Shown here: piece after piece, positions 1,745 through 20,619 of the stretch
Layout of the letters: each line of letters begins with the position of its first letter
Numbering within the stretch: the first letter of the stretch is position 1
Program-made: the position numbers and the translations under genes
The notes under the pieces: generated by a model
What the model saw: only the letters and a program-made list of their open reading frames with translations
What the model was told of the DNA's origin: nothing
The model's database searches: none
Virus record (IMG/VR): IMGVR_UViG_3300027793_002327
Span: 1 to 39,245 of that record
Source: a virus
Direction: 5' to 3' (one strand)
Length of the DNA stretch: 39,245 nt

Positions 1745-2599
1745 TTACTTATTTAATCCAAACATTAGGTTTTGGTTACTTCCGAGAACAGTACTTGGAA
1801 CATTACCTTCCCATTTTTCAATCCACATTTGTTGAAGCAACAACGGTGTTAAAGTTTGTTGTCTCAATTTGTTAGATTCCGCCTCAGCCCTTGCGTTTGT
1901 CAACAAAGCCTGTGCATTACCTTCAGCGGTTGCAATTTTAATTCTTGCTTGTGCTTCAGCGGTTTTAACTTGATTTTCCGCCATAAGTGCCGATTGTACA
2001 GCGTTGTTCTTAGCCTCAATCGCTTTCTTAAATGTTTCAGGGTAAACTAAGTTTGATGTAAATTGTTGTAATACAAATCCTTCAGGTGATAATTGTTTTT
2101 CCAATACCTGTCGGACTTTGATTTCAAACTCTTGTCTATTAGATATAAGAGCGTCTGCTGTGTAACTATTTGCTACCACACGGAACGCATCAAAGATAGA
2201 TGTCTTTAAGAAACCTTCTTCAATTCGGTCCAACTCAACACGATATTTTGCAAATATATAAGGAACCTTTTCACGTTTTACTGCGTAGTTTACCATTGGT
2301 GAACAATGGAACTCGGAACCGTCTTTAGAGTTTACCACAAAAGATTCATCAACACCGTCTTCAGTTTTTTTATATTCTTTATGTTGAACATAAGTTGGGA
2401 ATTCAACAATTTTGGTTGAAATCGGGTTATACAATACCCATCCTGTAACCTCAGTTACATCATCAACACCTTTACCATCACCGTAAAGATTTACTTTAAC
2501 ACCTACGTGTCCTGCGTCAATTCGTTCACATCCCGTGAACCCGAAAATCAAAAGTACCAGTACCGATACTCCGATTAGAAGTTTAGTTAGATTGCTCAT
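1745..2599 (-). CDS. SPFH / band-7 domain lipoprotein
   Basis: 284 aa. The N-terminal hydrophobic segment (residues 7-22) ends in a lipobox FTGC with Cys24, predicting a lipoprotein. An SPFH/prohibitin-like domain follows (GHVGVKVNLYG, a D/E-rich middle, ESFVVNSKDG), then a long Ala/Glu-rich helix (about 190-250: EAKNNAVQSAL, AEAQARIKIATAEG, AEAESNKLRQ) typical of the stomatin/HflK-type coiled coil. Family members build ring-shaped membrane scaffolds and often regulate proteases such as FtsH. Its start lies within the upstream membrane gene (17-nt overlap), suggesting coupled expression. The role in the phage is unknown; membrane remodelling or protection from host proteases is inference. Confidence 0.85.
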   Translation of the reverse strand: MSNLTKLLIGVSVLVLLIFGFTGCERIDAGHVGVKVNLYGDGKGVDDVTEVTGWVLYNPISTKIVEFPTYVQHKEYKKTEDGVDESFVVNSKDGSEFHCSPMVNYAVKREKVPYIFAKYRVELDRIEEGFLKTSIFDAFRVVANSYTADALISNRQEFEIKVRQVLEKQLSPEGFVLQQFTSNLVYPETFKKAIEAKNNAVQSALMAENQVKTAEAQARIKIATAEGNAQALLTNARAEAESNKLRQQTLTPLLLQQMWIEKWEGNVPSTVLGSNQNLMFGLNK

Positions 2600-2840
2600 C
2601 TTTATTTTTTGTTTTTGTTTGTTTTATGTAGTTAATAATTCCCATTGCTCCAAGATAAATTGATATTGTTTGGAGTAAAAACAATATAAATGTTAGTACA
2701 ACACCCACGTTAAATGATACTGTACTAGGAACGTTAGCCATACTCAATGTGTATGACACAAGTTGGTTTGAAAAAAATAGGACAAGACAAGTGATAATCA
2801 TTTGTAGTCCAAAATCTAATTTATAAAATTTGTTAAACAT
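2583..2840 (-). CDS. 85-aa two-span membrane protein
   Basis: Two predicted hydrophobic segments (about residues 12-30, IITCLVLFFSNQL, and 45-70, VGVVLTFILFLLQTISIYLG), then a basic tail (KQTKTKNKDEQ). It overlaps the SPFH gene start by 17 nt, which suggests the two proteins work at the same membrane. A late-like element (TATTTAAA, minus strand 2850-2843) sits 2 nt before the ATG. No family recognised. Confidence 0.65.
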   Translation of the reverse strand: MFNKFYKLDFGLQMIITCLVLFFSNQLVSYTLSMANVPSTVSFNVGVVLTFILFLLQTISIYLGAMGIINYIKQTKTKNKDEQSN

Positions 2841-4750: not shown

Positions 4751-5431
4751 TTATCTGATAATATGAAATTTCATGTCATGAATTACTTTCATTCCAATTT
4801 TTTTGTGACCTTCAGGGTTCATATGACATAATTCGTCCCAACATCCTGTTCTATCAATTACACGTGTATCAACAACAGTTGCACCTGATATTGAATCCAT
4901 TAACATTTTTTGAAACTGAGCGTATCTTGGACCATAAGCGGGATTTGATGTCCTTGTACATTTAACAGGGTCAAAACCTGTTAAAACCACACAACGAATG
5001 TTATATGTATGACATAAGTCAACAATTTGTTGAATATTAGAAACTGCTCGTTTAGGTGTTATTGATTTTGTGAACATATCGTTGGCACCACCATAAACAA
5101 AACAATAATCAATACCCTTATGTAGTGATGTTTTTGCGGTTTCAAGCATCCAACCTGTTGTCTTACCTGAAACTGATAGATTATTCATTCTTAGACCTGT
5201 TTTTTTACAAACAACAACTTGCCATCCTGAATTATGATTTGATGTGTGTGAATCACCAATAAAAGTTCCATATTTTCCGTTAATATTAACAACGGTATCT
5301 TGAACTTTTGGTATTACAATGATTGTATCATTTGGTAAATTGGGTTTTGAATATAGGGTTGAACTAATACCTATAAAACTTAAAATTATTAGAATAATTA
5401 AAAGGATAATTCCTATTATATTTTTTTTCAT
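4751..5431 (-). CDS. SGNH/GDSL-type hydrolase with N-terminal membrane anchor
   Basis: 226 aa. Residues 4-24 form a hydrophobic signal anchor (Ile/Leu rich, ending at GISSTLYSK). SGNH blocks are visible: block I FIGDSHT (nucleophile Ser), block III GGANDMF, and block V DELCHMNPEGH carrying the catalytic Asp and His. These enzymes are esterases, lipases or acyl hydrolases acting on polysaccharides and lipids. The export signal predicts action in the periplasm or at the cell surface. It lies between the RNA ligase and a run of lipoprotein and secreted genes; surface-glycan deacetylation is one possibility (inference). Confidence 0.8.
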   Translation of the reverse strand: MKKNIIGIILLIILIILSFIGISSTLYSKPNLPNDTIIVIPKVQDTVVNINGKYGTFIGDSHTSNHNSGWQVVVCKKTGLRMNNLSVSGKTTGWMLETAKTSLHKGIDYCFVYGGANDMFTKSITPKRAVSNIQQIVDLCHTYNIRCVVLTGFDPVKCTRTSNPAYGPRYAQFQKMLMDSISGATVVDTRVIDRTGCWDELCHMNPEGHKKIGMKVIHDMKFHIIR

Positions 5432-5482: not shown

Positions 5483-6208
5483 TTATTTCTTTTTGTAGTT
5501 ATGTTTGTGACACTCCATCCATTTCTTATATCTTGATTTACCAAGTATATCTAACACCTTATGTAGATACTCCTTTTCACAATCTTTTATTTTACCACAC
5601 GCAGTTGCTCTATCCAAACTTGTTTTGATTTTTTCTTTTACCTGATTATTTAAATAGGACATTTTACTTTTCCATGTTTTTTCTAAAGTGGTAAGTTTTT
5701 CTTTATATTGGGATTCAGTTATTACACCCATTTTTAAATCATAATCTAATTTTGATTTTTCAACCATATACCAATTTACATAATAATTATATTTTTGTGT
5801 TTTAGCCCAACCTTCAATTTCTCTATTAATTCTTGCAACAATTATTTTGTTTTGTTTTTGACATTCAACTTTATTTAAATGAGCCTTAGTTAAAAGTTCT
5901 TTTTCGGCCTTTGTAACTTCAATACCTTTTACACAAGAATCAATTTTACCAGTTCTTGATGTAACCATTGTAAATGGGTCGTAATCCAAAAATAATGGAT
6001 AATCCATTATTGTTGCATCAGTTGTTGGTGTTATGTCAGATGTCATTGGGTTATCAAAGATAACGGTACCCATAGAATCTACTACAGCGTTTGGTTCTTC
6101 ATCTACCAAAAGATTAACTGTTGGGTTTGGTGTTGGTATAGGTTCTTTTTCACAACCCATAAAACCAATCATACCAACTAAAACGAGCGATAATATTATT
6201 TTTTTCAT
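5483..6208 (-). CDS. Lipoprotein, 241 aa, unknown function
   Basis: Signal peptide MKKIILSLVLVGMIGFMGC with lipobox Cys19, then a Pro/Thr-rich linker (EKEPIPTPNPTV) and a long Lys/Glu-rich helical domain (about 90-241) with several Cys (SCVKGIE, VECQKQ, ACGKIKDCEKE, MECHKH). The residues after Cys, EKEPI, are identical in the small lipoprotein gene upstream. Not assigned to a family. A TATTTATA late-type motif lies 12 nt upstream of the start. The product is probably in the host envelope. Confidence 0.75.
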   Translation of the reverse strand: MKKIILSLVLVGMIGFMGCEKEPIPTPNPTVNLLVDEEPNAVVDSMGTVIFDNPMTSDITPTTDATIMDYPLFLDYDPFTMVTSRTGKIDSCVKGIEVTKAEKELLTKAHLNKVECQKQNKIIVARINREIEGWAKTQKYNYYVNWYMVEKSKLDYDLKMGVITESQYKEKLTTLEKTWKSKMSYLNNQVKEKIKTSLDRATACGKIKDCEKEYLHKVLDILGKSRYKKWMECHKHNYKKK

Positions 6209-6218: not shown

Positions 6219-6425
6219 TTATAAATAGTTTTTAGTTTTTGTTTTTAGAATTTTTGGAATACGGAATGTTCTTTTACCCAATTTACGCTTTTTTGAATTA
6301 GGTTTAGAAATTGTTTTAACTTCATTTTGGTAATTATTTAAAATTTTAGGTGGGTTTATTTGTATTGGTTCTTTTTCACACCCTACTAATAAAATACATG
6401 CCAAAATTATTTTATGTAGCTTCAT
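6219..6425 (-). CDS. Small basic lipoprotein, 68 aa
   Basis: Signal peptide MKLHKIILACILLVGC with lipobox Cys16, then EKEPIQINPP and a very basic tail (SKKRKLGKRTFRIPK). It shares GCEKEPI with the 241-aa lipoprotein immediately downstream, suggesting duplication or a shared sorting signal. Only 1 nt separates it from the stop of the giant secreted protein gene, so the two are probably one transcript. Confidence 0.65.
   Translation of the reverse strand: MKLHKIILACILLVGCEKEPIQINPPKILNNYQNEVKTISKPNSKKRKLGKRTFRIPKILKTKTKNYL
6221..6228 (-). promoter_or_regulatory. Late-type motif TATTTATA upstream of a lipoprotein gene
   Basis: Minus-strand TATTTATA, 12 nt before the start at 6208. The surrounding TATTTATAAATA is a palindrome, so orientation is ambiguous. 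Confidence 0.4.
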
Positions 6426-6426: not shown

Positions 6427-9400
6427 TTATCTTAATAATGTAAAAGTTCCATTATATTGGAAAACCTTATCTTCCAATGAAGTTACAATCATCTTATACA
6501 CATATACACCATCGGGTGCTGGTTTACCCAAATAGTTTCCATCCCATCCTTTTGAAAGGTCAGTTGTTTCAAACATTTTTTCTCCCCAACGGTTAAAGAT
6601 TAACATTTCGTATGTTTTATTATTAATAACGAATGGTTTGAATGTATTGTTTTCATTTGGACCTGCATTGTCAGGTGTGAAAGCGTCAGGAACAAACACA
6701 ATTATGTCAGGCCCAATTAGTACTCTACTAATTGTTGAGTCTTTACATCCTTTATCTGTTGTAACAACTAACTTAATCCAATAAGTTCCCGTATCTTTAC
6801 CAAATACAATGTTTGAATTCTTAAATGTATCACTACCAATCTTAAATAATTTACCCCAAGTCCAATTGTACTTCATATTAGTCACAAATGGATTCTGACT
6901 AACACTTGATGTATTAATAGTTTTAAACTTAGGTAATGCCACCGTTGTTTTGTACAATGGGTCAGTAGTAAACACAACACTTGGTTTTGGATAAACTTCA
7001 AATGTTTTTGTTATAGATGTTCCACATATCTTTTCAGGAAAGAACGTGTTATTAACCGCTGTTAATGATGTTCTATAATAACCAAAGTTATTAAAAGTTT
7101 TTGACCAACTAAAATTATCTCTTAGTAAGAATGTATCATTTACAACCCACGAATACTCAATTGATTTAATTCCGCGTTTTTCAGTCGGTGTGAATGTTGA
7201 AAAATGTGGTTGACATCCATTTGTTGTGGTGAAGTCAGGTTCAGGATAAGGTGTGATTAAAATCTTGACACTGTCAATTACTCTAGCACAAAGTGGTGCG
7301 TCCCAAGATTTGAATTTAACCGTAAAGTATCCTCTTGCAGTATCATTATCAGATGGTACGTATTGTTTTTTACCAAAACCTCTTTTGTTACCAATCATTT
7401 GACCACCAGGAGGTGTTAGAGTATCATAAAGATTAGTATTAACTACCCATCTGAATTTAACTGCGGAGTCAATGTTTGCAGTGTCTAATTTTAGAGTCCA
7501 AGTATCTTTACCACAACTCACAAATGGTGGAACAAACTTAATTTCAGGTTGGTTCATTACTGTTAGTTTTAATATCTCAGTATCTTTACAACCATATTGA
7601 CTTTCACCAACCATCATAAGTTTGTAAGGATTATTAAAACCTCCGATATATCCTTTAGCCTTCGGTGTTGGTGTAAAAAGTCCCCCATCAGGGTAAGTGA
7701 TTTTTGTCACACCCCAACTACCATCGGTTATTACATTTTTCAATTCATATGGCCAAGGATATGTTGAACAAAAACCCATACCTATTACTTTCAGGTCAGG
7801 TTTATAACTAATAATCACATCAAAACTATCCACTCTTGAACAAGTAACTGAATGGTCAGGAGCTATAAGGTTACTTACAAACTTAATGTTATAATTACCT
7901 ACACCTATACTAGTTTTGAATATACCTGTTGATATATCTGTAGATACTTTAGGGTCATTTCTATCACCATTCCTATCCTGAATAAAGATGGTACCTTGAG
8001 TAGGTTTAACACCATCCACCAAAATGTAATCAAATAAATTAATACTCACACCTGAATTTTCACAATAAAGAGGTATGGTTGTCAATTCAACTTTAGGTTC
8101 TGTAATGATATTTACATCAACAGTGTCGGTACTTTGACAACCCGTAATTAAATCTTTAACGGTAAGTTTGAAAGTGTACAAACCTTTGTAATAATCCTGT
8201 GAAGGTGCACCAAAGTTAAATCTAATGTTTGGAATTGAGTTCGTAGAAATATTATAAAGTAGTTTAGATGTGTCCACACCATTAGGTGCTCTAACAACTT
8301 CCCATAACATGTTCACACCATTTTTGGTTGCTGGTCTTACTCTCAAATTGTCCATCATCATTGACCCAATATCTTGACATACTGTCGCCTTTCTTAATTG
8401 GATAATGGGTGTACCATATATTGTTTGTGTTGTTGAATCCATGTTTGAACAACCATTTGTATCGTTAAACTTAACATAAACTTTTGTAGTAAAGTTATTA
8501 CCTCCTTGTAATTTACTATTATCTACTGATATTGTGTTGAATAGGAACCTTCCGTTAGATGGATTCGTAACAATGTTTCCTATTTTATTTTTGTTTCCGC
8601 TCCATATTTCATATGTTCCAAAGTTATGAGGTTTAACCAAGAATGGTTCCATCCATACACTACCATAAGAATAACATTGAGGTTTCAATGGTTTTGGGTC
8701 CCAACCAATTTTTGGTAATGGTTTAACCCTTACAAAAATTGTATCCATATCTTCACAAGTGTGCCCGTTTTGAGTCAACACCGTCTTCAATGTAAACATA
8801 TAAGTTAACTTTGTAATATCAGATTTTAACTTATAGGTTGATAAATTCCCTAATCCACCCCAAGTATATGTAGGAGTCAATGATGTTGGTTTATGATTGG
8901 CAGTCAAGGTGAATGTATCTTTATCACATATTGATTGGTTAGGTCCAGCATTAGATATGACAGTATCATTCACAACAAGTATTGCCGTGTCATACTTCAC
9001 ACACTGATATGTCGTATCAGTAATTCTAACCCAATAACTACCTTTTAGGTTTGTTGTCATGTAACGAGTTGTATCACCCGTACTCCACAAGTATTTTACC
9101 GTGTCATTGTTTTGACCATCAAATGTATTAGTTTCATAGGTACAGATAACCTTATCTGAACCCAAAGTAATAACAGGTAGTGGTTTAACAAATGTTAATG
9201 TGGTATCACGGAACTTACAACCATCACCATCAGTTACTTCCAACATCAATGTTGAATCGGATTTGAAGTTTTTAATCGTTGTGAAATCGGTGGTATCACC
9301 ATTATTCCATTTGTATTTCAAAGTAGGTTTACCAGCAATTACTTTAGCCTTCAATGTAAATGTAGTTTCTTTACAAGCAAAACTATCAGCATCTGCCAAT

Positions 9401-10962
9401 ACAACTTTTGGTGGTTGGGTTAAATAAACGGTATCACTATAAATCGTAACACATGATTGGGCACTTGTTAATTTATGAATGATAATATACTTACCTTCAT
9501 AATAGTAATTCATGGTATCGGTTTTCTTTGAAGAGTAAAATAACTCGTTCGCCAAAGTATCTCTAACACTCCATGAATAACTTGTTGCGGCATATAACTC
9601 ATACGCTTCCATGGCGAACCTTCCACATTTTAATTGGGTATATCTACGTTTTGATGTAGGTTTTGGATTTACCTTAATCTTAAATGAACGAATTGATGTT
9701 GCTGGTGGTTCACAGTGTTCGTCACTAACGGTAACTGTAAATGAATATGATATATCAGAAGCCGAACCAATTGGCGGTGTCCATTCAAAGTTTGCGTAAG
9801 ACTTTCTTTTTTCTGGCCAATCACTCTTATTCGCCAATGTAAACTTCGCGCCAGGAATACCGTTGTTCCATTTCATTGTTGTTGTATCAGGAGTTGTCTG
9901 ATATGGTGTAAAAGTTTCATCATCAGATTCAACCTTAAACTTCAAAGTTTCACCCTCACATACTTTGTAAGTAAACTTGGGACCCAAAGTCGGTGCTTTG
10001 TTATATCCACAATCATCCCTAACCCATACCTGCATGTCACGTCTTGTTCTACCAATTACACGCCATACACCAGACGTGTCTTTTCTCCATTCAGTTTGTT
10101 CAACACATATAACCGCAGATTCATCACATTTGGTTGGTGTTGTAATAATATCACCATTTGTTGTATCAAAATAAAAACCTCTTGGTGGGTTTGTTTTTGG
10201 GTTTGGTGTACAGTTAATTGTCGTTGGTGGTACACAATACGGTGTCATAGGCACTCTAGCAGTAAATGGTGATGAATATGAAACTGAACTGTTAGGAATA
10301 CCCTGAAGCCCATTTACTAACTTATATGAAATTGAATCATAATCTATTGTGTCAGTCGCACCATTATTGTAATACCAAGGTTGATTACAACATAAAAAGG
10401 CAATAGGTGGGTTAGATAATTGTGGTGAACTGTTACACTTGTTCTTCATTTTTTGAAGGTTACAAATGTTAACCATTGCCGTGGCGTAAAAGTTTTGATT
10501 TGACTGTCCTGTTGTAATACCACCATTTCTACAGCACTCATTCACATAAAATGTAACCTCACAACATGTTGATTTATTTACAAAATTGTTTAATGGTGAC
10601 GTATTAAAATCAATCGTGGCTTCAAATGTGTGTTCTTCAACACCTTTATTCGCAAAGGCGGAATTTGCGGTACCACATGGATTACTACTTGTTGAACATC
10701 TTGTTGTTACGTCTTTAATTGAAACCCTTGATAGTCCACTTAATGTGTAACTACCACATCCATTTCCACCATTTAATCCTGCATAAGTGCCAAATGACGG
10801 TGTACCCATAGACACACCTCTACAATCTCGGTAAACTTTAGCAATTATTTTGTACTTTCCATTTCCTAAACATTTGTAGGAAACATCTGCACCCATCATG
10901 TGGGTTGCCTGAACAGTTAAAAAACTGAACAAGAACATCATTAAAAGTAATAATTTTTTCAT
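6427..10962 (-). CDS. Giant secreted protein with Ig-like repeats and a type B T9SS (gliding-motility) C-terminal sorting domain
   Basis: 1511 aa, the largest gene in the window. Residues 1-19 are a signal peptide (Leu/Phe-rich, cleaved after VQA). The mature start THMMGADVSYKCLGNGKYK followed by YRDCRG resembles the N-termini of large Bacteroidota surface proteins. The middle holds many Ig/PKD-like modules with recurring CxxxxFTL starts and WSTGDTT or WNNGDTT strands, and each module contains Cys. The last ~90 residues match the CHU_C / gliding-motility C-terminal domain: FVPDAFTPDN, IFNRWGEKMFET, WDGNYLGKPAPDGVYVYKM. In hosts this domain directs cargo through the type IX system and attaches it to the surface. 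A degenerate late-like motif (TACTTATA) precedes the start. A phage origin is clear from the flanking genes; function as adhesin, decoy or exclusion factor is inference. Confidence 0.88.
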   Translation of the reverse strand: MKKLLLLMMFLFSFLTVQATHMMGADVSYKCLGNGKYKIIAKVYRDCRGVSMGTPSFGTYAGLNGGNGCGSYTLSGLSRVSIKDVTTRCSTSSNPCGTANSAFANKGVEEHTFEATIDFNTSPLNNFVNKSTCCEVTFYVNECCRNGGITTGQSNQNFYATAMVNICNLQKMKNKCNSSPQLSNPPIAFLCCNQPWYYNNGATDTIDYDSISYKLVNGLQGIPNSSVSYSSPFTARVPMTPYCVPPTTINCTPNPKTNPPRGFYFDTTNGDIITTPTKCDESAVICVEQTEWRKDTSGVWRVIGRTRRDMQVWVRDDCGYNKAPTLGPKFTYKVCEGETLKFKVESDDETFTPYQTTPDTTTMKWNNGIPGAKFTLANKSDWPEKRKSYANFEWTPPIGSASDISYSFTVTVSDEHCEPPATSIRSFKIKVNPKPTSKRRYTQLKCGRFAMEAYELYAATSYSWSVRDTLANELFYSSKKTDTMNYYYEGKYIIIHKLTSAQSCVTIYSDTVYLTQPPKVVLADADSFACKETTFTLKAKVIAGKPTLKYKWNNGDTTDFTTIKNFKSDSTLMLEVTDGDGCKFRDTTLTFVKPLPVITLGSDKVICTYETNTFDGQNNDTVKYLWSTGDTTRYMTTNLKGSYWVRITDTTYQCVKYDTAILVVNDTVISNAGPNQSICDKDTFTLTANHKPTSLTPTYTWGGLGNLSTYKLKSDITKLTYMFTLKTVLTQNGHTCEDMDTIFVRVKPLPKIGWDPKPLKPQCYSYGSVWMEPFLVKPHNFGTYEIWSGNKNKIGNIVTNPSNGRFLFNTISVDNSKLQGGNNFTTKVYVKFNDTNGCSNMDSTTQTIYGTPIIQLRKATVCQDIGSMMMDNLRVRPATKNGVNMLWEVVRAPNGVDTSKLLYNISTNSIPNIRFNFGAPSQDYYKGLYTFKLTVKDLITGCQSTDTVDVNIITEPKVELTTIPLYCENSGVSINLFDYILVDGVKPTQGTIFIQDRNGDRNDPKVSTDISTGIFKTSIGVGNYNIKFVSNLIAPDHSVTCSRVDSFDVIISYKPDLKVIGMGFCSTYPWPYELKNVITDGSWGVTKITYPDGGLFTPTPKAKGYIGGFNNPYKLMMVGESQYGCKDTEILKLTVMNQPEIKFVPPFVSCGKDTWTLKLDTANIDSAVKFRWVVNTNLYDTLTPPGGQMIGNKRGFGKKQYVPSDNDTARGYFTVKFKSWDAPLCARVIDSVKILITPYPEPDFTTTNGCQPHFSTFTPTEKRGIKSIEYSWVVNDTFLLRDNFSWSKTFNNFGYYRTSLTAVNNTFFPEKICGTSITKTFEVYPKPSVVFTTDPLYKTTVALPKFKTINTSSVSQNPFVTNMKYNWTWGKLFKIGSDTFKNSNIVFGKDTGTYWIKLVVTTDKGCKDSTISRVLIGPDIIVFVPDAFTPDNAGPNENNTFKPFVINNKTYEMLIFNRWGEKMFETTDLSKGWDGNYLGKPAPDGVYVYKMIVTSLEDKVFQYNGTFTLLR

Positions 10963-11010
10963 ATCTTATAAGTATAGACAATATTATGTACAAAAAGGTA
11001 TTCTGAGTGT

Positions 11011-11039
11011 AAAAAAAATCCCCACTTTTGATGGGGATT
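11011..11039 (-). terminator. Intrinsic terminator after the kinase gene
   Basis: 8-bp hairpin AATCCCCA-N7-TGGGGATT (11017-11039), followed on the minus strand by eight T. It separates the kinase/phosphoesterase operon from the giant gene. Confidence 0.85.
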
Positions 11040-11056
11040 TTAAATAGTTATTTTTA

Positions 11057-11497
11057 TTAAACTAATTTAACTTCAAATCGGTCTTTCATTGCCTGTAATT
11101 TGTCCTCAGGTACTCCGTGTTCATTAACACCACCATGCCTGTTTTCCACAATTATACTGAATACCTTATACCCATATTGACTTGCCAAATCATAGTAATG
11201 TTTCATTTCCCACTCTTGTGTAAATGTGTTGGAAACAACAATGTCAGATGAATCCAAACCACTTGTAATATGATTTTGAATCATTGCCATCTCAACTTGA
11301 GATTGACACCACTCATGTGCTTGTTTTAATTTTAATCCATCAAAATTGTAGTTTCCATGAATATCCGTAAAATATTTATCGGTCTCAAAATGAGTACAAC
11401 CAAGTTGTTTTGCCAAGGTGGATTTACCAGCCCCTGGTATTCCACGTAATAGATAAAGGTTTTTTCCTGCTGATGTATAAGTTGTCATATTAGTCAA
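11057..11497 (-). CDS. P-loop kinase, polynucleotide-kinase-like
   Basis: 146 aa. Walker A GIPGAGKST at residues 19-27, then ETDKYF (the Asp position of the PNK/N4BP2-like kinase family) and a C-terminal lid with Arg residues (ENRHGG). This matches single-domain AAA_33-type kinases related to the 5'-kinase half of T4 Pnkp, which phosphorylate 5'-OH polynucleotide ends. It overlaps the upstream metallophosphoesterase by 8 nt. Inference: the pair could heal RNA ends (5' kinase plus 3' or 2',3'-cyclic phosphatase) for the Rnl1-like ligase at 3701-4732. Other small-molecule kinase roles are not excluded. Confidence 0.8.
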   Translation of the reverse strand: MTNMTTYTSAGKNLYLLRGIPGAGKSTLAKQLGCTHFETDKYFTDIHGNYNFDGLKLKQAHEWCQSQVEMAMIQNHITSGLDSSDIVVSNTFTQEWEMKHYYDLASQYGYKVFSIIVENRHGGVNEHGVPEDKLQAMKDRFEVKLV

Positions 11498-12140
11498 TTC
11501 TTTTTTCGTGATGGTCTTTAGGTAATGTCAATTTTTTGTGTGGTCGGTCTTTCATAATTGAACGAATTTCTTTGATGTTAATTGGATACAAGTTGTTACC
11601 ATCAACACCCACGTCCATTGCCTTACCATCGTTAATTCTAAGGTGTGGAGGTAAGTGAACGTGACCGTGTAAGTGAATTACACCATCGTTCATTCCGTTC
11701 CAACTTGCAATTGGGTAGTGCATACATACAATTGAAAGTTTGTCCATTTCTTTTCCGTTTGGGATTCTTAAATCCAAGTGGATATAATCTTGAGTTGATG
11801 TGAACAAACTTTGAACATTCTCTTTGTTTCTACGAATGTGATGGTCGTGGTTTCCATAAACCAAGTGAACATTTTTACATAAAATTCTGTTACGAAACTC
11901 TTCAATTTGTTCAAACCCGCCAAAAGACCAGTCACCTAAGTGAATCAAAACATCATTTTCACCAACCATTTCGTTGATGTTATTTACCAATGTGTCATTC
12001 ATGTGGTCAAGAGACTTGAAATCACGGGTTAAGTTTTCAGAACCAGCCCAACGAGTTGTTGCACGGCAGATATTAGAGTGAGAATAATGTGTATCACTCG
12101 TGAAAAATAACTGCTGACCTTTTTCTAAAATCAATTTCAT
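11490..12140 (-). CDS. Calcineurin-like metallophosphoesterase
   Basis: 216 aa. All family motifs are visible: SDTHYSHSN (Asp16, His18), HLGDWSF, GNHDHH, MHYPI and HGHVH. The fold binds two metals and cleaves phosphomono- or diesters. Close relatives are frequent in large phages. It is the first gene of a two-gene operon with the P-loop kinase, overlapping it by 8 nt. The ATG at 12140 lies 4 nt downstream of a TATCTTTG element, so the transcript may be leaderless. In bacterial Pnkp enzymes a calcineurin-type phosphatase is fused to the kinase, so this operon may be a split version (inference). Confidence 0.88.
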   Translation of the reverse strand: MKLILEKGQQLFFTSDTHYSHSNICRATTRWAGSENLTRDFKSLDHMNDTLVNNINEMVGENDVLIHLGDWSFGGFEQIEEFRNRILCKNVHLVYGNHDHHIRRNKENVQSLFTSTQDYIHLDLRIPNGKEMDKLSIVCMHYPIASWNGMNDGVIHLHGHVHLPPHLRINDGKAMDVGVDGNNLYPINIKEIRSIMKDRPHKKLTLPKDHHEKRID

Positions 12141-12144
12141 ACCA

Positions 12145-12152
12145 CAAAGATA
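12145..12152 (-). promoter_or_regulatory. Host-type promoter of the phosphoesterase/kinase operon
   Basis: TTTG-N20-TATCTTTG on the minus strand, an exact match to the Bacteroidota -33/-7 pattern. The -7 element ends 4 nt before the ATG at 12140. Confidence 0.85.
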
Positions 12153-12163
12153 GTATTAAAATT

Positions 12164-12460
12164 TTAACTAACCAAATACTTGTAACCTTCTCCTGTTTTT
12201 TTTACGGACACATCAACATCAAGGAATACCGCATTTTGTTCACCAGCATGTAAACCTAAAATGTTATAATCGTAAAATTCTTCGGCCTCACCCATTGTCA
12301 TCAAATCTCTTTCACATAATATTGATAGTATTTTTGGTTTGGAATATAAGATTCGTCTACCATTTCCAAATTCCTCAACAATTCCAATAATCGCCTCCTC
12401 AAGTCCATCTAACAAAATGGCTCCTTCGGCATATTCATCTAAATCTATTGTAAAACTCAT
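12164..12460 (-). CDS. Hypothetical acidic protein, 98 aa
   Basis: Not recognised. An acidic protein (ITIDLDEY-type N-terminus, LLDGLEEAIIGIVEEFGNGR, then LSILCERDLMTMGEAEEFYDYN and a terminal DVDVSVKKTGEG). The pattern resembles small conserved phage proteins of unknown role. Its ATG overlaps the stop of the upstream secreted-protein gene (ATGA at 12457-12460). Confidence 0.7.
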   Translation of the reverse strand: MSFTIDLDEYAEGAILLDGLEEAIIGIVEEFGNGRRILYSKPKILSILCERDLMTMGEAEEFYDYNILGLHAGEQNAVFLDVDVSVKKTGEGYKYLVS

Positions 12461-12852
12461 GGGAAAAAATAATATGATATTCTTTGTTCCTTATCAAATA
12501 CAACAATACCAAGACCATTTTCAGTTTTTCTTATAACTATTTCCATGACTCTTTGTGCCCTAATGTTGAATACTTTGACGTAAGCGGCATCATCAACTTT
12601 TGAATATGATAAGATATCATAATTGACACCTCCATTTGAAATCATTCCTGTGTTTTCATCAGTTATGTTGAAAGTCCAATCACTAACAAATGATGTGTAA
12701 TCATTGTTTGATACAAAATCCCATTTATCAGTTTGATAGTTGAATATCATTTTTGATGTTGATACCGTATTTGTTCGGATTTGTGTGGTCGTGTATTGAC
12801 CAAATAGACTTGTTGATAACAACAATAATAGGGATAGAAATATATTTTTCAT
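12457..12852 (-). CDS. Small secreted protein, 131 aa
   Basis: The N-terminal signal peptide (MKNIFLSLLLLLSTSLFGQ, predicted cleavage near the Gln) has the SLFGQ ending common in Bacteroidota. The mature part is beta-rich (KMIFNYQTDKWDF, SDWTFNITDENTG, VMEIVIRKTENG, ISYYFF). No family recognised. It is the first gene of the minus-strand block next to the strand switch, and its product is predicted to leave the cytoplasm through Sec. Confidence 0.7.
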   Translation of the reverse strand: MKNIFLSLLLLLSTSLFGQYTTTQIRTNTVSTSKMIFNYQTDKWDFVSNNDYTSFVSDWTFNITDENTGMISNGGVNYDILSYSKVDDAAYVKVFNIRAQRVMEIVIRKTENGLGIVVFDKEQRISYYFFP

Positions 12853-13005
12853 TTGTTTTTTTCGGTCAAAAAAAGGGGGAAATGGAATTTAGGGCTTTTA
12901 CAAATTACCAAGATGCTTTTAGACTCAAATCACCATTTCCTTACCCTGTAGTGAAATTGTAATAAAGATTAAAATTATAATCAAGTGGATTTTAAACAAA
13001 TAAGA
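12853..13005. other. Divergent intergenic region at the strand switch
   Basis: About 150 bases between the minus-strand block and the late plus-strand block. It contains AAAGGGGGA 1 nt before a plus-strand ATG that opens a 26-codon frame (12882-12962). That frame is too short to call. No clear TAnnTTTG promoter for the minus gene is seen. Confidence 0.4.
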
Positions 13006-13013
13006 TATTTATT
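13006..13013 (+). promoter_or_regulatory. Late motif TATTTATT
   Basis: Ends 4 nt before the ATG at 13018; one of about twelve plus-strand copies with the same spacing. Confidence 0.65.
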
Positions 13014-13017
13014 GTGT

Positions 13018-13689
13018 ATGAGATACATGTTAAACATTTCTGATGAAGAAAAACAAGCCCTATTAAACCAACATAGCAGACCATATGATGGTTATCAAAC
13101 ATTAAGATTCCCTGAACCTGACAATAGAATTCATACTTATGACCCTGCTGGTGATAAAGCGGGAATCACTGTTAATAACAAAGGTGAAGTTAAACGATAT
13201 ACCAATGTGGGTATTAATGAATCAATGAATAGTGATGTTGCTGAACCACACTACGGTTCGTTTGATTACGTTGAGAACAAAATGTGTGAAGCGTGTGGTG
13301 GTTCTATTCAAGAAGATGTTTGCGAAGTGTGTGGTGAAAGTTACATGAATGAAGATATTACTGAACCTTATTCTGAAATTGATTTTTCTAATTATGATTT
13401 TGATTCAAAAGGACCTGAACAATTTGAAGATGAAGACATGCAAGCTGGTGGTGAGGAATTATTTCCTTCTTATGATTCTGATGGAAATTTTTTAGGAATG
13501 GTAAAACTCAACGGCGACATGGAAGATGGTAAAGAAATGTACCCTGAAGAAAAACCAGCATACGAATTTGATTCACCAGGTCCTTATGGCGCAACAAATA
13601 CTTTTGAGGGTGTTGAAAATCCTGAAAAAGTTAAAGATTCAATTAAAGAATCTTTGAATTGGTTCAAGAGATTCTCAAACTTTAACTAA
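13018..13689 (+). CDS. Zinc-ribbon protein, probable virion component, 223 aa
   Basis: An acidic, Pro/Gly/Asp-rich protein with one treble-cysteine cluster CxxC-N8-CxxC (about residues 90-105: CEACGG then CEVCGES), a zinc ribbon. The N-terminus MRYMLNISDEEKQALLNQH resembles the short leading helices of other late gene products here. The ATG at 13018 is chosen because the late motif lies directly before it; the upstream GTG at 12985 would place the motif inside the gene. The stop overlaps the convergent 70-aa gene by 15 nt. Function unknown; the late position suggests a head or tail part. Confidence 0.65.
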   Translation: MRYMLNISDEEKQALLNQHSRPYDGYQTLRFPEPDNRIHTYDPAGDKAGITVNNKGEVKRYTNVGINESMNSDVAEPHYGSFDYVENKMCEACGGSIQEDVCEVCGESYMNEDITEPYSEIDFSNYDFDSKGPEQFEDEDMQAGGEELFPSYDSDGNFLGMVKLNGDMEDGKEMYPEEKPAYEFDSPGPYGATNTFEGVENPEKVKDSIKESLNWFKRFSNFN

Positions 13690-13887
13690 TTTCGTTTCTT
13701 GAAGTTTTTTGGACACCAATTTCATTAAATGTTGGTGGGTGGTAAAATCTTTATTTTTGACGTAATAAAGATTTGCATAATTAATTGCAATTTTTAATTG
13801 AGCATAGGTCTTACAAGAGTTAATAACAACACAAGCTTTACGAAATTCAATCAAATTTGGTTCGGTTTTAGTTTTTTTAAATAACAT
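13675..13887 (-). CDS. Hypothetical basic protein, 70 aa
   Basis: Not recognised. A basic helical protein (MLFKKTKTEPNLIEFRKAC, AQLKIAINYANLYYV, LMKLVSKKLQETK). It is convergent with the zinc-ribbon gene, with a 15-nt 3' overlap, and divergent from the 97-aa acidic gene. Codon use resembles neighbours and the region has no competing plus-strand frame, which supports a real gene. Confidence 0.55.
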   Translation of the reverse strand: MLFKKTKTEPNLIEFRKACVVINSCKTYAQLKIAINYANLYYVKNKDFTTHQHLMKLVSKKLQETKLVKV

Positions 13888-13969
13888 ATTTTTTTGGTTT
13901 AATGTGTCTTTTGTAAATTATTAAGATATTTTGATAAGCAAAGATAAATATTTTTTACAACAAAACAAA

Positions 13970-14263
13970 ATGGAAATAGTAGAAATTATTTCCTACCACC
14001 AATCCGAAAACATTACTGAAGTCACCTTTAGATTAATGAATGATGAAGAAGACATGGTTAGGACAGATGTAATTGAAAACAACTTCTTTGAAGAGTTTGG
14101 ATACGATTACTTAGCGCCAGTTACTGACTGGTTATTTGAAGAAGATTCATTAGAAATTAACAACGAGTTCCCTGAATATTTGGATGAAGATGAACTTATG
14201 TCATTTCTAAATGAATTTTATATTGTTTACCCTGACAAAATTCCACCCGCAGAATACGAATAA
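13970..14263 (+). CDS. Hypothetical acidic protein, 97 aa
   Basis: Not recognised. A strongly acidic protein (MEIVEIISYHQSENITEV, LMNDEEDMVRTDVI, WLFEEDSLEINNEFPEYLDE). The ATG at 13970 is preferred over the TTG at 13931, which would add 13 codons spanning AT-rich DNA. No clear late motif precedes it, only TAAATATTTTTTA. Possibly a DNA-mimic-like or regulatory protein, but this is only a composition argument. Confidence 0.6.
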   Translation: MEIVEIISYHQSENITEVTFRLMNDEEDMVRTDVIENNFFEEFGYDYLAPVTDWLFEEDSLEINNEFPEYLDEDELMSFLNEFYIVYPDKIPPAEYE

Positions 14264-14278
14264 TATACAATATTGTTG

Positions 14279-14286
14279 TATTTATT
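14279..14286 (+). promoter_or_regulatory. Late motif TATTTATT
   Basis: Ends 4 nt before the ATG at 14291. Confidence 0.65.
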
Positions 14287-14290
14287 GGTA

Positions 14291-14617
14291 ATGCTTAACG
14301 AGGAATTGAAAAGAATTAAACAACTGATGATGGTAGAGGATGAAGAACCTGCCGCTGAACCAGCTGCGGCTTCTACACCATCAGAACCATCAACACCTTC
14401 GTCAAGTTCTTCATCTTCAAGTTCATCGGGAGGAGCGGAAGGTGGAAAAGGATACCCATCAGTAACCAAATGGGAATCAGGTGTGTCAAGAGGTAAAGCA
14501 AATCCTGTTGGAACCACTAAATGGGAATCAGGATTAACAAGAAGTAAATCTAATCAAATTGGTGTTACCAAATGGGAATCAGGAACTAAAAGAGGTAAAG
14601 GTAATACATTACTATAA
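14291..14617 (+). CDS. Repeat-containing small virion protein (TKWESG repeats), 108 aa
   Basis: Starts MLNEELKRIKQLMMVEDEE, the same kind of leader helix as other late proteins here. An Ala/Pro/Ser linker with a run of ten Ser follows. The C-terminal half has three 17-residue repeats of the form TKWESGxxRxKxNxxGx. TKWESG...RG-type repeats occur in tail and baseplate-associated proteins of T4-like phages of marine or aquatic bacteria, from memory of the family and not checked here. The start at 14291 is set by the late motif. Its TAA overlaps the next ATG (TAATG at 14615-14619), so translation is coupled. Confidence 0.65.
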   Translation: MLNEELKRIKQLMMVEDEEPAAEPAAASTPSEPSTPSSSSSSSSSSGGAEGGKGYPSVTKWESGVSRGKANPVGTTKWESGLTRSKSNQIGVTKWESGTKRGKGNTLL

Positions 14618-16551
14618 TGAGTAATCAGAATCCACAAGACATATTAAATGAAATTTTACTTTGTATGAGGTATGATTCTTCAAAAACGCTTTCTGAAAAC
14701 AGAGAAATAATATTGGAACAAGGTGGATATTATTACACACCATCAGGTAAATTGGTTGGGTATCCTGGAACTAACAACTCAAACATACCAGCAAAAGATA
14801 TATACCCAAACATTACAAATAATCAATACCCACAAACCGCTGATTTTAATAAAATTCAAACAGCATTGGCAGGAAGAAACATTAATAAAATTGTTTCTCA
14901 GATGCCAAAAACACAAACAACTCAAATTCCAAAATTTGAAAAGCCTCAAATACCTCAATCAGACTACTTAGGACCAGGTGGAAGATTCCAACAACAATTT
15001 CCTGAGTATGACCCAAAACAACAAGAAAAATTAACACCGGTTTTAAAACAAAAAGAACAACTTAAAAATATTGAATCTTTATATCAAAGAGAATTAGCCG
15101 AACTAAAAAAACAATTTGGTGTTGGTACCAAAAAAATGGTTTCACCATATGGGAGTGGTTTATCAGGAAAAGAATTGGATGATTATATTATACAATATCA
15201 AAAAAATTCGGGTAGCTGTGCGTACTATCCCGAGTACTGCCAAGAGGTTAAAAAATTGAATGATAAATATGGTAAAACAAAATTTGCATCCTTTAATGAA
15301 TATGGTGATGTTGACCTACCAAAAAATAGTAAAGTTAGTTATTTTACTTACGAAGATTTTAATTCGGTAGACTCAATTAAAAAATCATTTATAACCAAAT
15401 TGACAGATGATGAATTAAGACGTTTTACAAATTCACCTAAAGGACTTTATCAATCAGGTAACGCACCTAAAAATGGTGATTTATATCAATTGATATTTAG
15501 TAAAATTAAAGATACTGTAAAAGATTTTATACTACCACCACCATATGATGAATATGTTTGGAAAAAAAATTTATATGTAAATAACGAAGGAAATTACGAA
15601 ATATCAAAAAAATATTATTTCAAATCAAATGATAAATTAATTCCTTACGATAAATTAAGATATGGTAATGCATCATTTATTGAAGAATATGGTCCTTTAA
15701 TACTAAATGGGGTTTCCATAATTGTTAGCGTACTTGGTAAAGGTAATTTAATTGCTTATTTAGCATCTCTTGGTTTAGATTTAGTTGCAGCAAAAATACA
15801 ATCAGATTCAGGTGATTCTGCGGGAGCTTTGTTAAGTACCATACTTGCATTTACACCATTTGCATCATTTGGTAAAGTTAGTCCTTCGGAGGCCACAAAC
15901 TTGGCCAAAAAGTTTGCAAACGCTACAAAAAGTGATGTTGCAAATGTATTCAAAACATTGACTGACGAAGAGTTAAAAATAATGGATGCGTTATCAAAAA
16001 CAGGTAATTTAGAAAAGGTAATAAATTCAGTAAAAAATATAAACGCACAGAATAAAATTAAAGAACTTGTAAAATCAAGTCCTGTTAAATCTAACATAAT
16101 TGGTCAAAAAATAGGTGCTGAACTTGGTGTAACAGGATTAGCCTTATATTCTCTTTGGGATACATTGGATGATGCAGAAATACAATCTAAAACTAGATTG
16201 GAAATGTTTGATTTAATCTTTAACTCATTGTCTGCGGACCAGACCCTAACAGAAAATGAACAAAATCAATTAAAAACAAATTTTGAAAAGTTATTTACCG
16301 AAAAAAAATTCAATAACGCTAAAGAAATTCTTGATGATATTAAGGAAAAAAGAAAGATTATTAATAAGATAAAAGAAAACACCGCTAAAAATGAATATAA
16401 TACTTTCTTAGAAAAAATTACAAATGGTTTAGACACAACAATTAATAATATGGATAATGAAATTGATTTATCAGGTATGTTTGATGTTGAATTAAAACCA
16501 GATGAAAAGAATTTATTTATCAATGCTGATACTACACAAACAAATAAATAA
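14617..16551 (+). CDS. Probable virion protein, 644 aa
   Basis: Not assigned to a known family. The N-terminus contains MRYDSSKTLSENREIILEQ, a leader motif recurring in late proteins of large aquatic phages. Residues about 20-160 are Pro/Gln/Tyr-rich and low in structure. Residues about 365-430 carry two hydrophobic stretches (LILNGVSIIVSVLG, LIAYLASLGLDLVAA) that could insert in a membrane, and about 495-510 holds another (GVTGLALYSLW). The C-terminal third is a long charged helix. Membrane segments in a late protein suggest an internal or ejected virion protein (inference). Confidence 0.6.
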   Translation: MSNQNPQDILNEILLCMRYDSSKTLSENREIILEQGGYYYTPSGKLVGYPGTNNSNIPAKDIYPNITNNQYPQTADFNKIQTALAGRNINKIVSQMPKTQTTQIPKFEKPQIPQSDYLGPGGRFQQQFPEYDPKQQEKLTPVLKQKEQLKNIESLYQRELAELKKQFGVGTKKMVSPYGSGLSGKELDDYIIQYQKNSGSCAYYPEYCQEVKKLNDKYGKTKFASFNEYGDVDLPKNSKVSYFTYEDFNSVDSIKKSFITKLTDDELRRFTNSPKGLYQSGNAPKNGDLYQLIFSKIKDTVKDFILPPPYDEYVWKKNLYVNNEGNYEISKKYYFKSNDKLIPYDKLRYGNASFIEEYGPLILNGVSIIVSVLGKGNLIAYLASLGLDLVAAKIQSDSGDSAGALLSTILAFTPFASFGKVSPSEATNLAKKFANATKSDVANVFKTLTDEELKIMDALSKTGNLEKVINSVKNINAQNKIKELVKSSPVKSNIIGQKIGAELGVTGLALYSLWDTLDDAEIQSKTRLEMFDLIFNSLSADQTLTENEQNQLKTNFEKLFTEKKFNNAKEILDDIKEKRKIINKIKENTAKNEYNTFLEKITNGLDTTINNMDNEIDLSGMFDVELKPDEKNLFINADTTQTNK

Positions 16552-16562
16552 CTTTTACAATA

Positions 16563-16570
16563 TATTTATA
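16563..16570 (+). promoter_or_regulatory. Late motif TATTTATA
   Basis: Ends 5 nt before the ATG at 16576. Confidence 0.6.
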
Positions 16571-16575
16571 TGATT

Positions 16576-17892
16576 ATGAAACAAAATATTATTAGTGAAA
16601 TCAAAAGATATAGAGAATTGATGTTGATAACGGAAGCTGAAGGATTACTCCCAACAGTTTTAAGTGTATTAGATAACGTACTATCAGGAATTAAAACATT
16701 TTCAAGAGCCGAAAAAAATGTGTTCGCAAATTCAATTGATGATTTTTTGACTGAGTTTCCTAATTTAGGTAAAAATATAACAAATGTTGATGATGAATTT
16801 GCAAGAGCTAGTAAAATAGTTTCTGAATTAGCTACTTCAACTAAAGAAGACGCAATATCAAAATTTTTAAAATTAATAAATAGCAATACTAAATTAGAAA
16901 AAACTTTTGTTGATAATTTATTAATAAACAAACCATTACTTAAAGATTTAGGAGCTCTAGAATACGATGACTTTAAATTATTTTTGAAAAAAGTAGGTAT
17001 AGAAGACATAGTAAATATTAAAAAAATTACAAACTCACTTTTAACTGACCCATCTATTCTAACACAGAAAAAAATATTTAATTGGGTATACGAAGAAATC
17101 AAAGTTGGTAAAAATACAATAACTAAAAACGCAGATGATGCTTTAGTTGAATTACTTACCGACCCAAATACAAAAGACCAATTTAATGCAATAACTAAAA
17201 AAAGAAATGCTCAAGAGTTTTTAGATGGTTTATATAATAAAATTGTTAAAAATGTTAACGAACCCACATATGAAAATGTTTTAACATATTTAACCAATGA
17301 TATTCAAAAAATTTATGATGAGTTACCAGCAAATTATAAAACATCATGGATAACTAAGTTTTTGAAAAATTATAAATTTGAAGGTAATAAATTGACAGGA
17401 GTACTACAGTGGTATTTTACAATCGGGTTAGTAATTAGCGGATACTCAATAATTCAGAGTTTAAGAATTAAAGATGCACTTTTTACAAAATGGGTTAACA
17501 CCAAGTATCCTGAATGGGAAACAATGACTGACACCCAAAAAGAAGTTGCTTTAACTGAATGGCAAGAATACTTTATAAGTAAAATTGGTATGAAGTTTTT
17601 TTACACACCACTTTGGTTACCAGCAACATTCTTATCGGATACCAAAGATATGCTATCTGAAAACATTTCAATGGAATCGGCTAATAAATTGTGGGATAAA
17701 GGTAAAAAACAAATACAGAAGGTTGACCCATTATTTAATTTTAAAGAATTTATTAAAAAAGATTGGGGAGCTGACTACACTGGTAAAGAAAAATTCAATA
17801 AAGAAGGTAATGTTTATATTGTAACAGATGTAAATGGTGTTGATTATAAATACACTGAGGACGGCAACAGTTTTAAATATCTTGAACAATAA
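16576..17892 (+). CDS. Probable virion protein, 438 aa
   Basis: Not recognised. The N-terminus MKQNIISEIKRYRELMLITE is another copy of the leader-helix pattern (I/E-xx-R-xx-LM-x-ITE). The body is helical and Lys/Asn-rich, with one hydrophobic stretch near residues 275-295 (WYFTIGLVISGYSIIQSL). The ATG at 16576 fits the usual distance from the late motif; an ATG two codons upstream (16570) overlaps the motif. It is followed after 5 nt by the next gene and probably shares a transcript. The similar make-up to the 644-aa protein suggests both belong to one virion substructure. Confidence 0.6.
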   Translation: MKQNIISEIKRYRELMLITEAEGLLPTVLSVLDNVLSGIKTFSRAEKNVFANSIDDFLTEFPNLGKNITNVDDEFARASKIVSELATSTKEDAISKFLKLINSNTKLEKTFVDNLLINKPLLKDLGALEYDDFKLFLKKVGIEDIVNIKKITNSLLTDPSILTQKKIFNWVYEEIKVGKNTITKNADDALVELLTDPNTKDQFNAITKKRNAQEFLDGLYNKIVKNVNEPTYENVLTYLTNDIQKIYDELPANYKTSWITKFLKNYKFEGNKLTGVLQWYFTIGLVISGYSIIQSLRIKDALFTKWVNTKYPEWETMTDTQKEVALTEWQEYFISKIGMKFFYTPLWLPATFLSDTKDMLSENISMESANKLWDKGKKQIQKVDPLFNFKEFIKKDWGADYTGKEKFNKEGNVYIVTDVNGVDYKYTEDGNSFKYLEQ

Positions 17893-17897
17893 TTATC

Positions 17898-19202
17898 ATG
17901 GGATTAGAAAAAATATTATTAGAAGACAAACCAAAAAAAACTGGTAAACCTCAAAAAACTAACACTAACACAGGTGAGAATTCAGGAGGTACCCAATTAC
18001 CTTCAACACCGTTTAAAACACAAGCTGAAGGTGATGCGTTTAGAGCGTGGGTTAGACAAACTGATGCGGCATATGCAACGCAAATAAATTTATCAGCGAC
18101 AGGACCATTTAACAATAATACAATTAGAACTGCATACCAAAAGTATGGTAATGAGTATCAACAATCTTTAACGTCAGGTGGTGGTGCAGCACAACAATCA
18201 GAAACCGTAGACAAAGCAAAAGAAATATTTGATAAATTTAATGAATCAGTAAATTTTTTATCAGTTAATAATGAAAAATTCAATTTAGAATACAATCAAC
18301 AAGTAAGTAATAAAATTAAACATTTTTTAAGTAAAAACTTTAATGAAGAAACTTCATATGTTGGAGCAATTTTATCGTTATATGGTAAAAATATTTCTAA
18401 ATATAAAACAGATGAAGATATACAAAGTAAAATTGACCTTCATTTACCAAGTCTACAAAACTACTTAACATTATATGAGGGAATTCAATTAAAAAGAAGT
18501 AGTGGTTTATCACAAATTTTAGAACAAGCATCAAAAATAGTTGTTGTTAATGTTGTTAATGGCATTCCAAAAAAACAAACTGAAGATGACAACTACAAAA
18601 ACGCTTCAGGTAAAATAATTACATCAGTAATTGGTGGTGGTGATGAAGTAATAAGGGGAGAAAAAAGCGATACAGTTGCCAGAATTAAAAAAGCTTTAGG
18701 TTATACAAAAGATAGTACACCTTATTTTACTGATGATTTTGATAAGTTTATAATTGATTATAAAGGTAAAAACGGATTAGATAATACCAATGGTAATATC
18801 AGTAAAGAATTAATATGTAGTATTGAACAATACAAAAAGTTGTGTGTCTCATCTTCGGGACAAAAAACAACTGCACCACCAACAAATACTACAACATCAA
18901 CACCAATTGAGTTAAAGTATTTAAATGATTACGCAAATGCTGTTGGTACTGGTATACCTGCTTACGCAACTTGTAAATCATTGTTTGATTATTATTCCGA
19001 ACAAGCATTAAATTACAGAAGATTGAAAAAGGTAAACCAAGCGCCAAATATAACTGACGCACAATTAAGACCAATTAAAGACAAAATATTATATTGTCAG
19101 AAATCTTCTGATTTAAAAGACAGAGCTAAGTTAGATACATTAATTTCACAGAGATTTAGAATCCAACAAGATAAAGATAGTCCATATTATTTGGATATTT
19201 AA
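17898..19202 (+). CDS. Probable virion protein with peptidoglycan-binding-like segments, 434 aa
   Basis: Begins MGLEKILLEDKPKK, then a Thr/Gly/Asn linker. About residues 48-90 (QAEGDAFRAWVRQTDAAY ... TGPFNNNTIRTAYQKYG) and about 252-300 (KSDTVARIKKALGYTKD ... FTDDFDKFIIDYKGKNGL ... NGNISKEL) resemble PG_binding_1 modules, which bind cell-wall peptidoglycan. This is judged by eye and should be tested by profile search. The protein has no signal peptide, so a virion location (tail or internal wall-binding protein) is more likely than export. It lies 5 nt after the 438-aa gene. Confidence 0.55.
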   Translation: MGLEKILLEDKPKKTGKPQKTNTNTGENSGGTQLPSTPFKTQAEGDAFRAWVRQTDAAYATQINLSATGPFNNNTIRTAYQKYGNEYQQSLTSGGGAAQQSETVDKAKEIFDKFNESVNFLSVNNEKFNLEYNQQVSNKIKHFLSKNFNEETSYVGAILSLYGKNISKYKTDEDIQSKIDLHLPSLQNYLTLYEGIQLKRSSGLSQILEQASKIVVVNVVNGIPKKQTEDDNYKNASGKIITSVIGGGDEVIRGEKSDTVARIKKALGYTKDSTPYFTDDFDKFIIDYKGKNGLDNTNGNISKELICSIEQYKKLCVSSSGQKTTAPPTNTTTSTPIELKYLNDYANAVGTGIPAYATCKSLFDYYSEQALNYRRLKKVNQAPNITDAQLRPIKDKILYCQKSSDLKDRAKLDTLISQRFRIQQDKDSPYYLDI

Positions 19203-19213
19203 TTACAACCATA

Positions 19214-19221
19214 TATTTATA
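19214..19221 (+). promoter_or_regulatory. Late motif TATTTATA
   Basis: Ends 3 nt before the ATG at 19225. Confidence 0.65.
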
Positions 19222-19224
19222 GTT

Positions 19225-19863: not shown

Positions 19864-19902
19864 GATAAACATTTAATTGAAAGGAGGGGTCCTAAATCTA
19901 AG

Positions 19903-19926
19903 AAAAGGTGTCGTGAGACACCTTTT
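19903..19926. terminator. Bidirectional intrinsic terminator
   Basis: 10-bp stem AAAAGGTGTC-GTGA-GACACCTTTT, with T runs on both strands. It can end the 212-aa gene transcript (plus) and the tRNA-Leu transcript (minus). Confidence 0.88.
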
Positions 19927-19934
19927 TCTTTTAG

Positions 19935-20020: not shown

Positions 20021-20034
20021 AATTATTTCTTATA

Positions 20035-20042
20035 CAAAGATA
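20035..20042 (-). promoter_or_regulatory. Host-type promoter of tRNA-Leu
   Basis: Minus-strand TATCTTTG with TTTA 19 nt upstream; the transcription start would fall just before the tRNA 5' end. Confidence 0.75.
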
Positions 20043-20047
20043 AGAAA

Positions 20048-20557: not shown

Positions 20558-20579
20558 ATACTTTGTGTAATGATAAGTA

Positions 20580-20599: not shown

Positions 20600-20619
20600 C
20601 ACTTATCGGTTTTTGTTTA

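Follow-up and report, generated by a model that had tools for sequence, protein, structure and literature searches.

The window, a linear virus record of 39,245 nucleotides (IMG/VR record IMGVR_UViG_3300027793_002327, analysed at its full length), contains on its minus strand a single unbroken open reading frame (ORF) for a giant protein of 1511 amino acids. Judged by its sequence, this protein is homologous over its full length to a surface protein that is widespread on Bacteroidota chromosomes, and it ends in a type B sorting domain for the type IX secretion system (T9SS). The phage very probably displays the protein on the infected cell by way of the host T9SS. On balance, the best explanation overall is that this phage version of the host's giant protein, once displayed, supplants the one made by the host or competes with it.

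An earlier note, made from the letters of the sequence alone, had assigned the last 90 or so residues to the CHU_C domain, and profile searches agree. PF13585 (CHU_C) matches residues 1423-1493 with 39.7 bits (cut-off 27, E 5e-10) and TIGR04131 matches the last 88 residues, 1424-1511, with 42.8 bits (cut-off 35, E 4.5e-11), both above the curated cut-offs and both at the extreme C-terminus. The motifs FTPDN, FNRWGEKMFET, WDG and PDGVYVYK quoted in the note are present, and matches in a scan for the pattern WDG...PDGVYVYK were confined to the family of this protein. Full-length phage homologs also carry the type B C-terminal domain (CTD). The predicted N-terminal Sec signal peptide was likewise recognised by inspection and its design is shared by the homologs (Table 1). 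The designation of the phage as T4-like also holds: the window encodes a Terminase_6N of the T4likevirus type, a portal protein (phrog_213), an RNA ligase/tail-fibre attachment catalyst (phrog_562) and a head maturation protease (phrog_207). Among deposited phages, the terminases matched with the best coverage are those of the Flavobacterium phages 'immuto', with about 28% identity, which is consistent with a Bacteroidota host.

The body of the protein had been described as about 1400 residues of Ig/PKD-like modules, and this holds with one minor amendment. In the AlphaFold2 (AF2) model residues 430-1511 form a chain of Ig-like beta-sandwiches with a mean predicted local distance difference test score (pLDDT) of 80 and a predicted template modelling score of 0.30, the arrangement of the domains not being fixed by the model, and there is one PKD_4 match above the cut-off. 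However, the first 300 or so residues after the signal peptide form a separate beta-rich head with no clear Ig/PKD repeats. The model of residues 19-445 has a mean pLDDT of 87 and includes a cadherin-like domain. A Foldseek search with this N-terminal model rendered generic Ig/cadherin chains only, and residues 19-318, barely probed by the search, received no fold assignment. A sequence search of solved structures with the whole protein as query gave no match. The protein contains 41 cysteines over its whole length.

Homologs in hosts and in related phages

The genome scan for homologs was evaluated for the best 80 of 99 loci (loci carry L numbers here and below), and among the loci listed nearly all are titled Bacteroidota, many of them from freshwater metagenome-assembled genomes. 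The host homologs are collinear with the phage protein over its full length, have 40-47% identity to it and comprise about 1450-1620 amino acids where the contig is long enough; L020, L021, L022, L033 and others align across residues 1-1511. Chromosomal proteins such as those of L020, L021, L022 and L033 resemble the phage protein in length, in domain order, in the N-terminal THMMG...YRDCRG head and in the type B CTD. They differ in their setting: in L020-L024, L032, L033 and L037 the gene has aminopeptidase P and PCMT on one side, a conserved chromosomal position on contigs of up to 654 kb, whereas the phage copy lies among phage genes, has a phage upstream region and belongs to a separate clade in its stalk and CTD. 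The host gene is under strong purifying selection, with a ratio of nonsynonymous to synonymous substitution (dN/dS) of 0.02-0.03. Each of three host genomes examined holds 16-21 type B matches, and the genomes of L020 and L033 encode two giant-family proteins each.

The host-like genomes also encode the secretion machinery. SprA was found in seven of seven genomes tested and PorP/SprF (PF11751) in all 12 tested, but neither was found in the phage records. The phage thus appears to supply the cargo and the host the machine, in line with the earlier claim of dependence on the host T9SS, and surface display is therefore likely. Identity of the phage CTD is 58-62% with the giant-family CTDs of the hosts but no more than 44% with the other type B CTDs of the same three genomes (30 loci compared). 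For type B cargo, PorP-like proteins serve as the anchor (PMC9143113), and the closeness of the CTDs suggests that the phage protein uses the cognate anchor of the host.

The earlier note had proposed a homolog search to see whether the nearest relatives are host or phage proteins, and both kinds were found. The gene is present in seven further viral contigs (L002-L008), of which L002 and L003 represent the same virus as the window in two other assemblies (99.9-100% identity). Identity to the protein of the window is 90% in L004, 85% in L008, 73% in L006 (cut by the contig end) and 63% in L005 and L007. The phage contig of L195 has a homolog with 56% identity beside genes in common with L006, and L118 adds one more CTD with 86% identity. 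Counting the window phage, six distinct related phages carry the gene (window, L004, L005/L007, L006, L008 and L195). Gene order around it in L003 and L008 matches the window, and the terminases on the contigs of L003, L005, L007 and L008 are 70-100% identical to that of the window. Pairwise dN/dS between the window and L004 or L008 is 0.05-0.16, and the phage gene is thus kept by selection.

Sequence comparison shows a mosaic structure among the phage proteins. In L005, residues 1-690 are about 90% identical to the bacterial L020, L033 and L043, while residues 700-1200 are 93-97% identical to phage L006 and the last 200 residues 80-87% identical to the window phage. The same boundary is seen in DNA, where L005 is 87% identical to bacterial L033 from the ATG through nucleotide 2078 and beyond that point matches phages (86-98% to phage L006). 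Upstream of the ATG, 600 bp agree with phage L004 and not with the host. In a tree of residues 1301-1511 the phages form a single clade with a support of 100 in the Shimodaira-Hasegawa-like approximate likelihood ratio test, while in a tree of residues 19-690 they do not form one clade. The approximately unbiased test rejects a single phage clade for the head (p 1e-8) as well as the grouping of L005 with the window group (p 0.002), and for the tail end it rejects the grouping of L005 with hosts (p 1e-34).

The simplest reading of these comparisons is one old capture of a whole host gene, after which the lineage of L005 and L007 acquired the head of a host allele in place of its own. That the transfer ran from host to phage follows from the conserved host locus and from the position of the phages nested among bacteria. 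Two assemblies with differences in the vicinity, one yielding L005 and the other L007, make an assembly error less likely. L195, which is on a long branch, may be another case of head replacement. No description of such a mosaic with host-type head and phage stalk was found in the literature.

Probable display on the infected cell and rival readings

According to the favoured explanation, a T4-like phage of a freshwater Bacteroidota bacterium would encode a viral counterpart of its host's giant type B surface protein. The protein would be exported by the host Sec system, threaded through the host SprA translocon by means of its type B CTD and anchored, as the CTD similarity suggests, by the PorP-like protein to which the giant protein of the host is normally attached. 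The infected cell would then bear a rod made up of a phage stalk topped by a host-type head. That this rod competes with or replaces the host's own protein is slightly the better bet. The most likely benefit would be that a surface feature used by other phages is changed or hidden while the cell surface is otherwise kept normal up to lysis; such superinfection exclusion is a guess, and one that may well be wrong. The earlier note had proposed that the phage coats the cell with a protein of its own, and likely display supports that part; the uses it had suggested for such a coat, namely superinfection exclusion, adhesion and shielding, are conjectural. It had, however, missed that the host has a full-length homolog and that one relative has a head region swapped with that of a host allele. 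With these findings the question is no longer one of a coat but of a protein that stands in for, or imitates, the host's. A tentative and somewhat unlikely extension is that stalk and sorting domain stay the phage's own while the exposed head is taken, time and again, from the host infected at the time, which would be molecular mimicry by a virus tuned through recombination with host alleles. The mosaic makes it possible to test whether the host giant protein is a phage receptor or an exclusion target.

Several points weigh against competition or replacement at the surface. A PorP-like protein was not found in the records of the phages, and type B cargo may need a cognate one (PMC9143113). Only for L005/L007 is a recent head swap clear, the other cases being older or weakly placed. 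Every genome is metagenomic and the hosts are not isolates, and the benefit to the phage is something we infer.

Alternatively, the protein might be a surface adhesin, displayed through the T9SS in the same way but causing infected cells to adhere to particles or to one another or other cells, by which progeny would reach new hosts. The cadherin-like domain is similar to bacterial adhesin modules, and stalk and CTD resemble the grappling-hook protein GhpA of Aureispira. Ig-like rods are generic, however, and the nearest relatives are host proteins, and this role is considered unlikely.

Less likely still is a maintenance function without exclusion, in which host synthesis is shut off and the phage copy of an important surface protein sustains the envelope until lysis. 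In favour of this, the phage protein is collinear over its full length with a host protein under strong purifying selection, and exchange of the head with a host allele keeps it host-like. But residues 691-1511 are only about 35% identical to the host protein, a divergence beyond what a pure substitute would need.

Ig-like domains are common on phage particles, and a distance of about 1.7 kb separates the gene from that for the RNA ligase/tail-fibre attachment protein, which could point to a head fibre or a tail-associated virion protein. A signal peptide and a type B CTD are difficult to reconcile with this. The protein has no match in PHROG, its homologs are bacterial surface proteins, and its gene is on the strand opposite the structural genes, outside their cluster, with nucleotide-metabolism genes as neighbours and without the late-type element described below. 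A place in the virion is accordingly very improbable.

An artefact, that is, bacterial DNA fused to a phage contig or a functionless passenger gene, can scarcely hold even though full-length bacterial homologs exist and all data are metagenomic, since contamination or chimerism is ruled out by several assemblies with the gene among phage genes and by the phage-specific C-terminal clade, and dN/dS is far under 1.

Known systems and prevalence

Proteins with T9SS sorting domains are known from Cryophage (Bellas et al. 2020, PMC7468147), where they vary among phages and where hijacking of the host system and a possible role in superinfection exclusion were proposed. As in the window, the genes reside in a phage genome and bear a T9SS sorting signal. 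In contrast to the type B giant of the window, the Cryophage domains are of type A and are found on enzymes and on a PA14 protein, and no exchange with host homologs was described (PMC7468147). In crAss-like phages a T9SS sorting domain occurs in phage genes, once in the same ORF as BACON repeats (PMC6949934), but these belong to another phage group, have other domains and were given no proposed function (PMC6949934). Phage-encoded T9SS cargo is thus already known, from Cryophage for type A and in passing from crAss-like phages, and what appears to be new is a captured and re-headed type B host giant. No PMC paper describing type B cargo in T4-like phages was found.

Among bacterial proteins, the SprB-type adhesins, anchored by SprF/PorP-like proteins (PMC9143113), share the large size, the surface location and the type B CTD. 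In phages of the present family, however, no sprF/porP-like gene was found, either adjacent to the giant gene or elsewhere in the phage records. The CTD of GhpA matches a profile of the phage and host CTDs (E 1.8e-10), and its rod structures, neck and base, are the best Foldseek matches of the model of residues 430-1511. GhpA is nevertheless a bacterial protein of 5898 amino acids, and similarity of its head to the phage giant was not found. Llp of phage T5 (PMC9586334) is an analogy only, as a phage envelope protein that is made in the infected cell and protects against other phages; it is a small periplasmic lipoprotein acting on FhuA (PMC9586334).

An alignment of CTDs gave at least 262 viral stretches encoding a type B sorting domain, of which the best 80 were listed. 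A strong match to a T4-type terminase (E <1e-34) was found in 10 of 43 records checked. Judging from these numbers, remodelling of the infected cell's surface by way of the T9SS may be common among phages of Bacteroidota. Two uncultured deposited phages of 634-642 kb hold several type B domains each. The record MT839536, labelled 'phage' and with a CTD match, was not used because it looks bacterial, another large ORF in it resembling the excinuclease UvrA.

Another recurrent phage type B family, of about 680-840 amino acids, is seen in L135-L137, L158, L191 and other viral loci. Many of its members have QYCPxxGPD after the signal peptide, and the contigs, of up to 291 kb, include several with a T4-type terminase.

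Gene neighbourhood and further cargo

The giant gene belongs to a minus-strand cluster with thymidylate synthase, a polynucleotide kinase-like ATPase, a phosphoesterase and the RNA ligase. In the interval to the upstream kinase gene there is a terminator-like stem, which the consensus scan does not list; a comparable stem with a T run is also present in L004, L005 and L008. The promoter-like stretch before the gene has a counterpart in L004, TATCTTTG, with a host-type -7 element (TAnnTTTG), equally weak and based on consensus only. A scan for the sigma-70 consensus gave 84 sites against 63 in shuffled sequences and was discarded as evidence.

Table 1. Predicted features of the giant gene and its surroundings in the window
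Feature	Coordinates	Strand	Basis
Giant T9SS type B surface protein gene, 1511 aa	6427..10962	-	ORF; PF13585 and TIGR04131; phage and host homologs
Signal peptide, about residues 1-19	10906..10962	-	MKKLLLLMMFLFSFLTVQA, by inspection; same design in homologs
Head, residues 1-690, without a single phage origin; host-type in L005	8893..10962	-	Block identities, DNA, trees
Cadherin/Ig-like adhesin domain, residues 319-435	9658..10008	-	AF2 model; VIA-align Z about 10 against cadherin-like domain of SraP
PKD domain, residues 596-643	9034..9177	-	PF18911, 33.6 bits
Stalk of Ig-like beta-sandwich domains, residues 691-1300	7063..8892	-	AF2 model; best Foldseek matches GhpA neck and base
T9SS type B C-terminal sorting domain, residues 1423-1511, single origin in these phages	6430..6696	-	Profiles, CTD comparison, trees
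Intrinsic-terminator-like stem between upstream kinase gene and giant gene	11011..11040	-	AAATCCCC-loop-GGGGATTT and T run, sequence
Promoter-like stretch TTGTCTATACTTATAAGAT	10963..10985	-	Weak, consensus only
Small predicted lipoprotein, 68 aa, LVGC-EKEP, immediately downstream of giant gene	6219..6425	-	
Predicted lipoprotein, 241 aa, MGC-EKEP; near giant gene in L004 and L005/L007 too	5483..6208	-	
GDSL lipase/acylhydrolase with N-terminal membrane anchor, same cluster	4751..5431	-	PF13472, 51 bits

The motif TATTTAT is located at most 22 nucleotides from the start codon in eight of 20 plus-strand genes, against a background of 0.6% (upstream of 16570, 19225, 21996, 27737, 28000, 28784, 32918 and 36580), and none was found before the giant gene. 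It is a possible late promoter or translation element, and in its 8-letter form, TATTTATA, it corresponds to the T4 late box TATAAATA read on the opposite strand. Because the giant gene is outside the structural cluster, has a terminator and a promoter-like stretch of its own and lacks this element, we infer that it is not a late gene.

Relatives of the window phage encode further T9SS cargo. A type A protein of 583-584 amino acids (TIGR04183, 44 bits) is found in L005 (4983-6731), in L004 (5075-6826) and also in L007. L005 and L007 have a second type B protein of 629 amino acids (L005 16550-18436), with a C-terminus, QYNGTFTLIR, nearly that of the giant and a weak RCC1-like match well below the cut-off. 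Secreted proteins of 275-291 amino acids in L008 and L004 appeared type-A-like by eye, but no model matched and they were rejected. The phage contig of L195 (L196, G021 8000-22000) carries genes for a DegT aminotransferase, a thiamine pyrophosphate enzyme, an epimerase and a glycosyltransferase, possibly for remodelling of surface glycans. Taken together, the lipoproteins and the acylhydrolase of the window, the T9SS proteins of the relatives and the sugar-nucleotide genes of L195 look like a surface-remodelling region.

Elsewhere in the window, a membrane protein of 85 amino acids (2583-2840, minus strand) has a sub-threshold match to the SieB superinfection exclusion protein (E 0.005) and adjoins an SPFH/Band_7 lipoprotein (1745-2599). 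A ClpA/B-like AAA protease ATPase (phrog_4871) is encoded at 25007-27091 on the minus strand and an M20-like peptidase at 24152-24994. The phage contig of L005 also encodes a PPDK-like enzyme (21383-23782, plus strand) and a 181 amino acid NADH-quinone oxidoreductase 20 kDa subunit (NuoB-like, PF01058; L111 4807-5349, minus strand).

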